From NCBI GenBank assembly GCA_024639825.1, contig JAHEGH010000011.1:7840-63993 (forward strand): DNA of 56,154 bases, given 5' to 3'. The translations under genes and the position numbers were made by a program. The notes beneath the pieces are model-generated. The model was given only the letters and a program-made list of their open reading frames with translations, made no database searches and was not told the origin of the DNA. The stretch is from Gammaproteobacteria bacterium. Its GTDB lineage: Bacteria; Pseudomonadota; Gammaproteobacteria; Steroidobacterales; Woeseiaceae. Below, piece by piece: positions 51,915 to 56,154 of this stretch; within the stretch, counting starts at the first letter, position 1, and each line of letters starts with the position of its first letter.

Positions 51915-52499
51915 CTACCAGTCAAGATCGCGAAGAAATGCGATCAGCGCATCGGATGATCCCTTGGGAGAGTCCCAGGGAACATAGCGCTGCGGTCGTG
52001 TTGCGCCCGCGCGCAGTTCCAGGTCCCGCGATTCAGCAATCAGGCGCATCTGGTCGACAGTCACGCGATAGTAGCCGTCCAGGGCCGAAGCGACAGGCTT
52101 AACGTAGACGTCGTCGGAGGCGCCAATAGAACCGGGAGTCCATCCTTTGACCTCGAGGTTGAGTGGTTCTCCGTCTGCGTAGAGGACGATAGCTTCGAAA
52201 TCGTCCATCTTCCGGCCGCGTTCGGCCGAGTCCGATGATCCCCAGATCCCGAGCCACAGGAAATACTCGCGCTGGCCCATATTGTTGATCTGGATAGGGC
52301 CGACGTAAACGTAGTCGCGTCCAAAGGCGGAATTTGCAGACATGTCGCGGTACATGACGATCGGTGCGGACGCCCGCTTAATGGTCACCCCGGTCTCCGG
52401 ATCGAGCCGCTGCAGCACGGTTGTATCGTTGCCAGCGCAGCTCGTGAGCAGGGCCAGCGCCAAGGCGGCACAGGAAAGTCTCAGGCGATCTATCGTCAT
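51915..52499 (-). CDS. Small lipoprotein of unknown function, third gene of the multihaem operon
   Basis: A 194-aa lipoprotein with signal peptide and lipobox LLTSC (about 17-21), followed by a soluble domain with many beta-prone stretches (REYFLWLGIWGS, DGYYRVTVDQMRLIAES). I do not recognise its family. It begins 10 bp after the stop of the SPOR/barrel gene with an AAGG site 8 bases upstream of the ATG, so it is in the operon of the repeat cytochrome. It may help insert or attach the barrel or the cytochrome, which is inference from its place. Convergent with the TauE/SafE gene, separated by 2 bp. Confidence 0.68.
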   Translation of the reverse strand: MTIDRLRLSCAALALALLTSCAGNDTTVLQRLDPETGVTIKRASAPIVMYRDMSANSAFGRDYVYVGPIQINNMGQREYFLWLGIWGSSDSAERGRKMDDFEAIVLYADGEPLNLEVKGWTPGSIGASDDVYVKPVASALDGYYRVTVDQMRLIAESRDLELRAGATRPQRYVPWDSPKGSSDALIAFLRDLDW

Positions 52500-52509
52500 G
52501 CGTCGGACC

Positions 52510-54945
52510 TTAGTAATACAACTGGTAACCGAGACTAATGAAGTACGATTCCTGATCCTGGTTCAGGTCAGAGTTCGTCATATCACGGCTCGAGAATCGT
52601 TTACCGGCATCGAGCTCAATACGACCCCGACGACCCATACGATACTGCAGACGAAGACCCGGCGTATAGGTCAACTGGGTACTCATATCAGACAGTATTT
52701 CGCGGTAATCCACCCGCAGACGGGGATTGATGCGCCAGTTGCGCCCGATGGGAAAACGCGTGTCGAGACTAATGGTGTAAATGTCAGCTGAATCAGATGT
52801 TGCATAGCGCAGACTGAAAATACCGACATCGCCCTCGCGAAAGAGCCCGCTCGAAACGAGATCGGTCGAAAAGTAACTGTACTCCGCTTCAGTTGTGGCA
52901 GGTGCGTCGCCGCTTGCAGGCATGGCATCGACGATCGATCGGTTTGCGTTGATATTCAGCTGCAGGTGCGGCGTTAATGGACGCGACAGCCCAAGCGTCG
53001 TACCCGTCGTCATCGGTGAGCGGTCCAGGGCCTGTTGCCGGATCTGTACCTCGGTCAATGTCTGTGCGAGAAGGCCAAAGTCCTGGCTACGTTGGCCCAG
53101 CAATGCATTGCCGAGACTCAGGAATGGGCTGCGGCGGCGATCCAGTGAGCCGCTTAACGTGAGCTTGCCAGGCAGACGCCAGCTACCCTGGGCGAACGCA
53201 CTGCTGAGCTCGCTGAAGGCTGTGTCGTAATCGACCGAACCCCAGGCGGACACCGAGTCACCGAAGTAGCGCACCTCCGTTCCAACAGCCTGCCGATCGG
53301 TAAAGCTGTCTATTTCCTGCTGCAGATAGAACACCCCGAATTCGACGTTGTTGCTAAAGGGCGTGAAGTTCGAGCTGACGCCGTAGAACTGCCGAGATTG
53401 TTCGTCGGAGTTTGCAGTCGAGTACACCGGCTGACCCGCAACCGCATCGAACCGTATGCGGTCATTTAGCGAATAGGTGACGTTCAGACCGTCGAAGCGG
53501 CCAAGTACGCCACCTGTACTACGGGTTTGCCGCCCGAGCCGCCCGCGCAGTCGGGTTTGGGTGTCGTAGAGGTCGGCATAAAGATAGGACAGGCGGAAAT
53601 CATTTCCAGACGATCGCGTGACTTCATCAAGGAGGTCGTAGCGATGTCCGCCTGTCAGGCGCGTTGAAAAATCAAAGCGCTGACCCCGGCGGCGTGCGTC
53701 GATGGAAATGTCTGAATACAGTGATGACTGGCTCGTGACCTCTTCCTGATCGTTGAGCTGGTTGGCGTCGCGGCGATAATGCTGGGCCATGAAGGTGCGT
53801 ACCTTCCAGAGGCTGGGTTCACGCCCGGCCGACCCGGAGCCGCCTGCTGATTGTCCGGGTGAGCCGGTGGAGGCAGCGAGAAGCGCGGCAAGGCGTTGTT
53901 GCACCCGTTCAGCCCCCGGTCCGTCCGGATACTTGGCGAGGTAACGCTCGTACTCGGCCTTGGCATGGGCAACCTGGCCGTTACGTTCACGGGCAAGAGC
54001 CAGGTATTCCTGCGCCGCCTGGTGCTGGTCGCTTGCCGGTTGCTGCAACACCTTGGTATAGATCTGGACGGCGCGGGAAATCTCCCCGGCTGTCATTGCG
54101 CGTTTCGCATCCGCCATCAATTCGCCTGACTCACCATCCGCGATGGGTTCCACAGCAGGGGCGGGAGGCTGGCTGGCCACCTCGATCGGCTCGACGGCGG
54201 CGCCTTCCGTTGCTTCACGATCTATCCATGCCGTCGGATACTGGCCGCGGACATCGCGCAATACTTTCGACGCTGCTGTCGCAGAGTCGAAGTAGCCGAC
54301 GCGCATCCGGTACCAGGTCTTGCCGTCAATTTCGGTTTCCGTGATAAACAGTTTTTGCCCCGCCGCCAGCGTCATCACCGGTATGTCAGCGGCGCCCGGG
54401 TAGCGCAACGAGGATTCCAGGTTGATTACAAATCGTGCCGGTGGCGCTTTGACGCGGTTGACCTGGCGTCCCACTGCGCCACTCGATGTCGATACAGTGG
54501 CTGCCGGGCTGGCGTTGTGTAAGACACGAACGACAACCGTCTCACTCAGGTTGCCGGGTGTGACCAGAAAGTGAACTTCATTTGAGAAGCTCAGGCGCAG
54601 CTGCTTTTGTGCCGGACGTTCTCCGTCGTACTCGATGTGGACGAGGCCGATCTCATCGGCGCCCGGTGGCCGGTGAATCTCGCGACTGTCGGCGAGTGAC
54701 GGCGGCACGCCATGACAGATCGATGTCGTTTCGAGGTCGATCGAGAGGGCGTCGCCTTTCGCCTTGGGAAGATGCCCGAGGTACGTCACATCGCACCCAA
54801 GGCGAATCGTTATCTCGGTGTAAACATCACCCGAGCTGATATTGCTGGACGTGATGAAACCGGGCGCCGCATGCGAGGTCGACCAGGCCAGTGCCTGAAT
54901 CACGACCGCTGCGAAAATCGGGAGTGTTGGACGTAGCGGCAGCAT
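52510..54945 (-). CDS. SPOR/TPR outer-membrane beta-barrel protein paired with multihaem cytochrome
   Basis: A protein of about 811 aa. After a signal peptide (about 1-27, STSHA-APG) comes an AMIN-like beta domain (about 30-140), a SPOR-like segment (RFVINLESSLRYPGAADIPVMTL, TWYRMRVGYFDSATAASKVLRDV, about 175-240), TPR helices (about 280-360; AMTAGEISRAVQIYTKVL, AQEYLALARERNGQVAHAKAEYERYLAKYP) and, from about 390, an outer-membrane barrel ending in ...ISLGYQLYY. The combination suggests periplasmic peptidoglycan contact plus a barrel that could hold a cytochrome in the outer membrane. Start ATG at 54945 overlaps the stop of the upstream cytochrome gene (TAATG) with GGGGAG close by; the frame also opens further upstream. 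Coupled to the repeat cytochrome. Confidence 0.72.
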   Translation of the reverse strand: MLPLRPTLPIFAAVVIQALAWSTSHAAPGFITSSNISSGDVYTEITIRLGCDVTYLGHLPKAKGDALSIDLETTSICHGVPPSLADSREIHRPPGADEIGLVHIEYDGERPAQKQLRLSFSNEVHFLVTPGNLSETVVVRVLHNASPAATVSTSSGAVGRQVNRVKAPPARFVINLESSLRYPGAADIPVMTLAAGQKLFITETEIDGKTWYRMRVGYFDSATAASKVLRDVRGQYPTAWIDREATEGAAVEPIEVASQPPAPAVEPIADGESGELMADAKRAMTAGEISRAVQIYTKVLQQPASDQHQAAQEYLALARERNGQVAHAKAEYERYLAKYPDGPGAERVQQRLAALLAASTGSPGQSAGGSGSAGREPSLWKVRTFMAQHYRRDANQLNDQEEVTSQSSLYSDISIDARRRGQRFDFSTRLTGGHRYDLLDEVTRSSGNDFRLSYLYADLYDTQTRLRGRLGRQTRSTGGVLGRFDGLNVTYSLNDRIRFDAVAGQPVYSTANSDEQSRQFYGVSSNFTPFSNNVEFGVFYLQQEIDSFTDRQAVGTEVRYFGDSVSAWGSVDYDTAFSELSSAFAQGSWRLPGKLTLSGSLDRRRSPFLSLGNALLGQRSQDFGLLAQTLTEVQIRQQALDRSPMTTGTTLGLSRPLTPHLQLNINANRSIVDAMPASGDAPATTEAEYSYFSTDLVSSGLFREGDVGIFSLRYATSDSADIYTISLDTRFPIGRNWRINPRLRVDYREILSDMSTQLTYTPGLRLQYRMGRRGRIELDAGKRFSSRDMTNSDLNQDQESYFISLGYQLYY

Positions 54946-56154
54946 TACCACTCCCCGGCCGAGATGCTGTGGCAACCGCTCTGCGCACAGTTGCTATCAT
55001 TGTTGATGCCATTGTGCTTGTCTACGCCGGGGCGATAGTCGTTGAAGTGGCAACCGGCGCAATCAGGCTGGTAGACAGGCGTAGGCCAGTTCACGGTCTC
55101 CGAATTACCCTGATGGCAACGCGTGCAGTCGAGATTGCCGCGATGATCCAGCGGCTCGTAGCCCAGACCCATGTGCTGGTAGATATGCGGAGTCCATCCA
55201 TTGGTCGTATGGCAGTCATTGCACTCAAGGGTCGTCACAAAGTGTTGCTGACCCTTGCCGGTCGCCGTGTTGCCATCATGGCAGGAGGAACAGGAACCCA
55301 GGACCTGGGCGTGGTCGACGGTTGTTACCGGTATCCAGGTGATCGGCGAGTGACAGTCCTCACAAATGTCTGTCGTCAGGATATGCGTCGGGCCTGTACC
55401 CGTAGCTTGCGTCCCGTCGTGACAGCTGATGCAGTTGTTGGTGATGTTCGTATGGTCAAAGGTTGCTGGCGTCCAGGCGATCGTCGTGTGGCAGTCATCG
55501 CAGTTGTCGCTGCTGGTGAAGTGGGTCGGGTGCTTGCCTTCGGCGATGTTGCCATCGTGGCAGGAGGAGCAGATACCAATGACCTGGGTGTGATCGACCA
55601 TATCGGCCGGCGCAAATGTCACGTTGTTGTGGCAGTCCTCACAAATATCGGTCGTATTGATATGCGTCGGATTCTTGCCCGTCGCATCGGTGCCGTTGTG
55701 GCAGCTGATGCAGTTGTTGGTGATATTGGTGTGATCGAAGTTGGCCGGGATCCACGCGTTGGTCGTATGGCAGTCGTCGCAGTTATCGCCACTGGTAATG
55801 TGGGTCGGGTGCTTGCCGATCGCCGTGGTGCCGTCATGGCAGGAGAAGCAGGTGCCAATGACCTGGGTGTGGTCGACCAGGTCGGCCGGCACAAATGTCA
55901 CGTTGTTATGGCAGTCCTCACAAATATCGGTGGTATTGATATGCGTCGGATTCTTGCCTGTCGCATCGGTGCCGTTGTGGCAGCTGATGCAGTTGTTGGT
56001 GAAATTGGTGTGATCGAAGTTGGCCGGGATCCACGCGTTGGTCGTATGGCAGTCGTCGCAGTTATCGCCACTGGTAATGTGGGTCGGGTGCTTGCCGATC
56101 GCCGTGGTGCCGTTATGGCAGGAGAAGCAGGTGCCAATGACCTGGGTGTGGTCG
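54945..56154 (-). CDS. Large multihaem cytochrome with tandem tetrahaem repeats (5' end beyond window)
   Basis: This reading frame enters from the right edge, so the N terminus, signal peptide and total haem number are missing. The visible 402 residues hold 16 canonical CXXCH sites, plus one CX4CH (CAQSGCH) near the C terminus. Up to 55303 it consists of 93-residue units, each with four haem sites spaced as CxSCH-(about 17)-CDDCH-(about 18)-CISCH-(about 17)-CEDCH and fixed GK-PTH and DHT elements. The last 110 residues carry a further four sites and the CX4CH site. Homologous repeat cytochromes of the CXXCH-doubled/cytochrome c3-like type carry electrons over long distances at the outer surface of some bacteria. 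The stop overlaps the start of the SPOR barrel gene. Extracellular localisation is inferred. Confidence 0.85.
   Translation of the reverse strand, partial: DHTQVIGTCFSCHNGTTAIGKHPTHITSGDNCDDCHTTNAWIPANFDHTNFTNNCISCHNGTDATGKNPTHINTTDICEDCHNNVTFVPADLVDHTQVIGTCFSCHDGTTAIGKHPTHITSGDNCDDCHTTNAWIPANFDHTNITNNCISCHNGTDATGKNPTHINTTDICEDCHNNVTFAPADMVDHTQVIGICSSCHDGNIAEGKHPTHFTSSDNCDDCHTTIAWTPATFDHTNITNNCISCHDGTQATGTGPTHILTTDICEDCHSPITWIPVTTVDHAQVLGSCSSCHDGNTATGKGQQHFVTTLECNDCHTTNGWTPHIYQHMGLGYEPLDHRGNLDCTRCHQGNSETVNWPTPVYQPDCAGCHFNDYRPGVDKHNGINNDSNCAQSGCHSISAGEW
55303..56139. repeat. 279-bp tandem repeat array (three full units) within the multihaem gene
   Basis: Units start at 55303, 55582 and 55861 (279 bp each, 93 codons); a further unit begins at 56140 and runs past the window edge. 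The units at 55582 and 55861 are nearly identical at DNA level (about a dozen differences by eye), while the 55303 unit is more divergent. All keep the reading frame. This pattern points to recent duplication or gene conversion, not to a CRISPR. Confidence 0.9.

Follow-up and report, generated by a model that had tools for sequence, protein, structure and literature searches.

A conserved PCC3 porin-cytochrome cluster, a predicted electron conduit, in a Woeseiaceae bacterium

The window, a stretch of 56,154 nucleotides from a Woeseiaceae bacterium, ends in three genes on the (-) strand, which encode a repeat multihaem cytochrome, a porin with SPOR, TPR and beta-barrel parts, and a lipoprotein. 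Matched to the published description by gene content, haem numbers and inner-membrane protein (IMP) motifs, these genes and those on a second contig of the same genome (C154) are a PCC3 porin-cytochrome cluster, and comparison with relatives indicates that the cluster is real and well conserved. The window holds the downstream half of the operon, which probably works as an electron conduit between the outside and the inner membrane. The original prediction of a porin-cytochrome operon is borne out by the completed cytochrome, the conserved synteny with the barrel and the PCC3 gene content. Its view that the architecture lay outside the described systems has to be given up, as the same four core genes already make up PCC3 in the main text of He et al. 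(2017; PMC5566968). The features are listed in Table 1.

Table 1. Positions of the features in the window, and contigs of relatives on which mtrB and the porin gene occur together
Feature	Position	Strand	Basis or remark
Large multihaem cytochrome, 3' part, predicted extracellular	54945..56154 (ORF 54945-56153)	(-)	402 of at least 780 residues; open at window edge
Tandem DNA repeat	55350..56154	(.)	279-bp unit, 93 aa, 4 haem sites
Junction overlap	56047..56154	(.)	108 bp identical to first 108 bases of contig C154, same genome
PCC3 porin, 811 aa	52510..54945	(-)	Domain matches and AlphaFold2; start codon overlaps cytochrome stop
Porin N-domain, residues 31-142, predicted periplasmic beta domain	54520..54855	(-)	AlphaFold2 model; without Pfam match
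SPOR-like domain, porin residues 171-244	54214..54435	(-)	Pfam SPOR over cut-off; DamX match
TPR helices, porin residues 272-360	53866..54132	(-)	Pfam and AlphaFold2 model
Outer-membrane beta barrel, porin residues 380-810	52516..53808	(-)	22 predicted strands, AlphaFold2
Lipoprotein gene, 194 aa, no assigned function	51915..52499	(-)	Lipobox; relatives' loci
mtrB and porin on one contig (relatives)	G097:C3, G035:C77, G048:C50, G086:C6, G104:C39		

The right edge of the window is the end of contig C91 (base 63,993), and a search of the genome with positions 51915-56154 gave matches in C91 and C154 only. The cytochrome frame runs on across the junction into C154 as far as an ATG, where a hydropathy scan shows a hydrophobic, signal-peptide-like N terminus. 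The joined protein has at least 780 residues with at least 31 CXXCH sites and one CX4CH; because the 108-bp join lies inside a repeat, units may be missing and the number of repeats is a lower bound. Over the two contigs the gene order is TPR protein, IMP, 21-haem cytochrome, tandem-repeat cytochrome, SPOR/TPR barrel and lipoprotein, with a ferredoxin-FAD gene divergent from the PCC3 genes on C154. Here the cluster is split over C91 and C154; L036 and L045 are examples of relatives in which it is intact. The translational coupling noted earlier was confirmed, the cytochrome stop (54947-54945) and the porin ATG (54945-54943) overlapping in TAATG, as was the lipoprotein ATG 10 bp past the porin stop.

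A recount of the large cytochrome agreed with the 16 CXXCH sites and one CX4CH first read in the 402 residues of the window, and 2000 residue shuffles of this piece gave a mean of 0.25 CXXCH and a maximum of 4. Pfam matches on the same piece were Cytochrome_C7 and Paired_CXXCH_1. The tandem DNA repeat is present in 2.9 copies with 89% match, and the haem sites are spaced at 23/23/23/24 residues. The joined protein also has 37 His outside CXXCH (36 without that of the CX4CH site), enough for a second ligand per haem. As the cytochrome pieces contain no enzyme domain, an ordinary periplasmic enzyme was rejected. None of the three contrary results named with the original prediction (a missing signal peptide, an enzyme domain, absent synteny) appeared.

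The complete large cytochromes of relatives carry from 5 to 53 CXXCH sites in 49 ORFs, a set of 50 from which L116 (8 CXXCH, a fragment without an N terminus) was left out. Five of the 49 (L094, L096, L104, L122 and L137) have only five haems and still adjoin the barrel. A similar five-haem start is common to the 13 ORFs with an N terminus among 14 ORFs listed, and among the same 14, six short cytochromes of 5 or 9 haems are without the C-terminal end bearing a CX3-4CH site. The five-haem ORF of L096 may be frame-shifted, with one more CXXCH in another frame; in L104, no further CXXCH was found in any frame between the five-haem ORF and the porin. From this pattern we infer that the large cytochrome consists of a five-haem docking module and an extendable arm. 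The opening text of the N-module occurs also in the 21-haem cytochromes, so the two proteins may have a common origin there. This text pattern was unused as a count because it matched most 21-haem cytochromes, as was a profile of the C-terminal cap, which also matched the repeats. A further cytochrome gene with 26 CXXCH plus 1 lies near two of the five-haem loci (L094:3808-6327 and L096:5571-8267).

A length this free would also suit a charge store rather than a wire, and the accessible text of a study of Gallionellaceae suggests charge storage for PCC3 (PMC10734462). We consider this role of the large cytochrome very improbable, since it does not account for the IMP, for the conservation of the barrel or for the near constancy of the periplasmic cytochrome.

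The remaining PCC3 genes lie on C154. The periplasmic-type cytochrome (520 aa, 21 CXXCH) is encoded upstream of the large cytochrome on the same strand, and its gene overlaps the next by four bases. Its CXXCH number hardly varies among 72 complete ORFs (21 in 65, 18 in 4, 24 in 2 and 22 in 1), which fits a wire spanning the periplasm. The IMP (301 aa, same strand as the cytochromes) contains WX3HX13H twice and SGXXG, as W94/H98/H112, W276/H280/H294 and S135/G136/G139, and these residues are invariant in 18/18 sequences. A simple hydropathy scan showed one clear membrane segment in it, in contrast to the five transmembrane helices in the main-text description of the PCC3 protein, which is about 300 aa long and without annotation (PMC5566968). 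No Pfam family matched the IMP over its cut-off, its fold search of the PDB gave no match better than E 0.15, and a search of plasmids yielded weak matches in six records. At L111:8099-8887, an additional IMP-like gene of reduced length (262 aa) lies close to the normal one. The TPR gene (137 aa) lies upstream of the IMP gene on the same strand, and the divergent ferredoxin-FAD protein (438 aa) has a 4Fe-4S ferredoxin domain, an FAD/NAD(P) oxidoreductase domain and an N-terminal hydrophobic segment.

This content agrees with the main text of He et al. (2017), in which the components of PCC3 are a porin, cytochromes of an extracellular and a periplasmic kind, and an IMP that bears two WX3HX13H motifs and SGXXG (PMC5566968). 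As in that description, the IMP, the 21-haem periplasmic cytochrome, the large repeat cytochrome and the barrel are found here in one cluster, in this case in a Woeseiaceae bacterium. The haem sites number at least 31 CXXCH plus one CX4CH and 21, compared with the main-text medians of 34 extracellular and 21 periplasmic, with up to 85 in one extracellular protein (PMC5566968). In Gallionellaceae PCC3, the available account gives the periplasmic cytochrome 21, 24 or 27 sites and the outer one 10-35 (PMC10734462). A variable outer arm is thus already known from that study; the 5- and 9-haem forms and the near-constant 21 go beyond it, as far as its available text extends.

Porin homologues were found in 41/107 genomes of the family. 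The regions around the porin were inspected in sets of 20 and 7, and a second set held 80 named loci of 289 found with the IMP profile; many species are common to both locus sets, so they are not independent. The 80 loci are without the type clusters Slit_0867-0870 and Slit_1446-1449, and the closest among them were Chromatiales and Woeseiaceae MAGs. A 21-haem cytochrome homologue was present in 71/71 IMP-selected loci with room downstream. The synteny on which the original prediction depended was found as well, the porin being present in 40/40 IMP-selected loci with 7 kb downstream (on the opposite strand in L096, L112 and L133). The ferredoxin-FAD gene lies within 6.5 kb in 60/67 loci, on the opposite strand in 54 of these 60. 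A strong IMP match (E < 1e-60) occurred in 40/41 porin genomes and 0/66 others, and the ferredoxin-FAD gene (E <= 1e-90) in 35/41 and in 1/66 without the porin. The ferredoxin-FAD gene is missing from six porin genomes (G021, G067, G071, G073, G075 and G085), and the porin match of G021, G067, G071 and G085 is of a divergent 32-36% type.

Some loci depart from this pattern. In L056-L062 the PCC3 genes are of another, divergent type, whose large cytochromes have 5 or 9 haems only, and the ferredoxin-FAD gene was not found in the stretches available for these loci; genome G011 has both types. An Acidobacteriota bin (L083) and a Candidatus Planktophila lacus bin (L132) contain PCC3 loci like those of proteobacterial relatives. 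The scores of L083 are similar to those of the Woeseiaceae set and L132 resembles L131; both are probably mis-binned contigs.

The combination of SPOR, TPR and barrel in one product, as first proposed, was confirmed for the porin, with Pfam SPOR at 25.7 bits against a cut-off of 21 and all three parts visible in an AlphaFold2 model. The TPR matches in Pfam were below their cut-offs. The model, built from 44 sequences, has a mean pLDDT of 85.7. It shows a beta N-domain, the SPOR-like domain and five TPR helices, and we counted 22 strands in its barrel; a pTM of 0.55 makes the placement of the domains relative to each other uncertain. Published strand counts for PCC3 barrels range up to 42 in the main text of He et al. 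(PMC5566968). In 48 porin ORFs longer than 600 aa, sub-profiles matched the N-domain in 46, SPOR in 38, and TPR and barrel in all 48; Pfam alone found SPOR in 31/44 homologues (E <= 0.01) and TPR_9 in 32/44. In the N-domain, C51, H58 and C77 are kept in 35-36 of 44 homologues, and Cys51 and Cys77 possibly form a disulphide.

The original prediction also had the barrel contact peptidoglycan through SPOR, and of this the SPOR fold itself stands. The porin position aligned to the Gln of DamX, which we take to be the glycan-binding Gln, is Asn in this porin (N175); Asn stands there in 27/34 homologues and Gln in 3/34, which argues against standard glycan binding. The conserved W211 (33/34) and two Arg, R213 (28/34) and a second, mostly conserved one (25/34), argue for glycan binding. 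The SPOR region is absent from 10/44 homologues, so the system can do without it. Solved SPOR domains contact glycan by a Gln, a ligand residue and no definition of the fold in the available text (PMC6895207). Contact of the porin with peptidoglycan through SPOR is plausible from these residues, and it is weakened by the usual Asn and by the homologues without the domain.

With TPR matched in 48/48 ORFs, the TPR-barrel might instead serve chiefly as a channel through which the surface cytochrome is secreted or assembled, like the Slam, BcsC and PgaA types, and not as the housing of a wire. Pfam TPR_Slam matched 1/44 members (E 0.008), and cellulose synthase subunit C and pilus ushers were among the fold matches, at low TM-scores. 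However, the best 50 of 383 PDB fold matches (E <= 0.001) were porins, ushers and other barrels with a query TM of at most 0.31, that is, generic barrels, and the persistence of short, five-haem partners next to the barrel points to structural pairing. A main role in export therefore seems unlikely, and housing of the wire remains our preferred reading.

The lipoprotein gene follows the porin in 31/43 loci, and the lipobox Cys21 is the sole invariant column in 32 aligned relatives. Its fold matches reach at best E 0.01 (invasion associated protein b) with TM 0.28-0.48, and a function is not claimed from them.

The porin is distinct from that of MtrCAB, MtoAB and PioAB, which likewise join a porin to multihaem cytochromes. 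It has no match to TIGR03509 (MtrB family) at E <= 0.1, and the proposed comparison of barrel profiles gave no similarity to the MtrB of its own genome (hhalign probability 1.1%); no MtrB title appears among the 50 of 383 fold matches listed. Against the cut-off of 192 bits for TIGR03508 (DmsE/MtrA), the pieces of the large cytochrome scored 69 and 72 and the 21-haem cytochrome 24. As these family tests and the profile comparison failed, membership in Mtr/Mto was rejected, and the genome's own mtrCAB is separate. OmbB-OmaB-OmcB of Geobacter (Pcc), compared by its main-text description, is alike in general plan, with a barrel and inner and outer cytochromes, and its cytochromes have 8 and 12 haems (PMC5566968). 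PCC4 shares the IMP motifs and, by the same text, differs in having three periplasmic cytochromes and no extracellular one (PMC5566968).

The available PCC3 descriptions are without mention of SPOR, TPR or N-domain parts in the barrel, the downstream lipoprotein, the upstream TPR gene or the divergent ferredoxin-FAD gene. The words 'ferredoxin', 'flavoprotein', 'lipoprotein', 'peptidoglycan' and 'tpr' occur 0 times in the main text of He et al., the supplements of which may hold such genes (PMC5566968). Our literature search, supplements aside, likewise found no description of a SPOR/TPR barrel in porin-cytochrome clusters. Papers on Woeseiaceae, in their accessible parts, speak of mtr genes or FeGenie porin-cytochromes, and no Woeseiaceae paper was found among the PCC3 full-text matches available. 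The cell-wall-facing barrel parts and the ferredoxin-FAD companion may thus be new additions to what these texts describe.

About 20 kb from the PCC3 genes, C154 carries mtrC, mtrA and mtrB over their family cut-offs (L147:9690-15057 = C154:24689-30056). Their neighbours are fumarate reductase genes and the genes for an 11-haem protein and for a membrane protein with 5 haems, whose match to NrfH stays below the cut-off; hypD and hypF are also on C154. Across the family, MtrB was found in 29/41 genomes with the porin and 25/66 without it (p = 0.0014). Of 28 relatives carrying both genes, 5 have mtrB and the porin gene on the same contig, 26-46 kb from each other, as though part of the family had a recurrent electron-transfer island. 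The two genes are on different contigs in the other 23/28, where some porin contigs are long (G062, G049), so this linkage is not general. Genes for the RuBisCO large subunit and a phosphoribulokinase-family protein are located some 5 and 8 kb away from the IMP gene (L005:8409-12359, C154). No RuBisCO gene was found at the matching place in L036 and L037, whose genomes have one on another contig. RuBisCO occurred in 8/41 genomes with the porin and 6/66 without it (p = 0.15), no significant link, so uptake for autotrophy is weakly supported.

These neighbours bear on the direction of electron flow, which could be either, and we slightly favour uptake. Outward use, with partner cells or Fe(III)/Mn(IV) minerals as the acceptors of respiratory electrons, is a real possibility, short of an even chance; mtrCAB, the NrfH-like protein (below cut-off) and the fumarate reductase genes on C154 speak for it, as do the co-occurrence of MtrB with the porin and the five one-contig relatives. 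On the other side, mtrB is on another contig in most relatives, even with a long porin contig, RuBisCO and phosphoribulokinase-family genes are on C154, and the first PCC3 clusters to be reported came from Fe(II) oxidisers, according to the main text of He et al. (PMC5566968). In the accounts available, the function of published PCC3 members is unverified (PMC12442390), both PCC3 clusters of S. lithotrophicus ES-1 were downregulated on Fe(II) vs thiosulfate, which counts against the conduit reading (PMC8788666), and PCC3 is named, with no tested role, in a proteome table and in a comparison of Leptothrix (PMC12016527, PMC13386937).

In the conduit that we favour, the repeat cytochrome would exchange electrons with a donor or acceptor outside the cell. 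Its conserved five-haem module at the N terminus would dock at or in the barrel, and the repeats would reach outwards. Electrons would then travel along the 21-haem cytochrome as a periplasm-spanning wire. The IMP, which would bind two haems b, would receive electrons from this wire or give them to it, and at the inner membrane its partners would be quinones or the ferredoxin-FAD protein. The barrel would be held to the cell wall, to the periplasmic wire or to both by the N-domain, SPOR and TPR parts of the porin.

A bolder reading, which we regard as doubtful, makes PCC3 a full outside-to-NAD(P)H machine, in which a wall-anchored barrel clamps the 21-haem wire of constant length, a modular surface arm made of a five-haem plug and 0 to about 48 further haems sets the reach, and the IMP directly feeds the ferredoxin-FAD reductase of the inner membrane, which is inherited together with it. 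If this were true, electrons from outside would bypass the usual complexes on their way to NAD(P)H or ferredoxin.

In summary, PCC3 is a widespread, predicted electron conduit, and its conserved parts, apparently undescribed in the texts available, make its mechanism easier to test. The wall-facing module on the barrel is one handle, and the minimal five-haem variant, small enough for structural work, is another. The almost exclusive ferredoxin-FAD partner suggests where the electrons go, and the mtrCAB neighbourhood offers a further handle in some marine-sediment bacteria.
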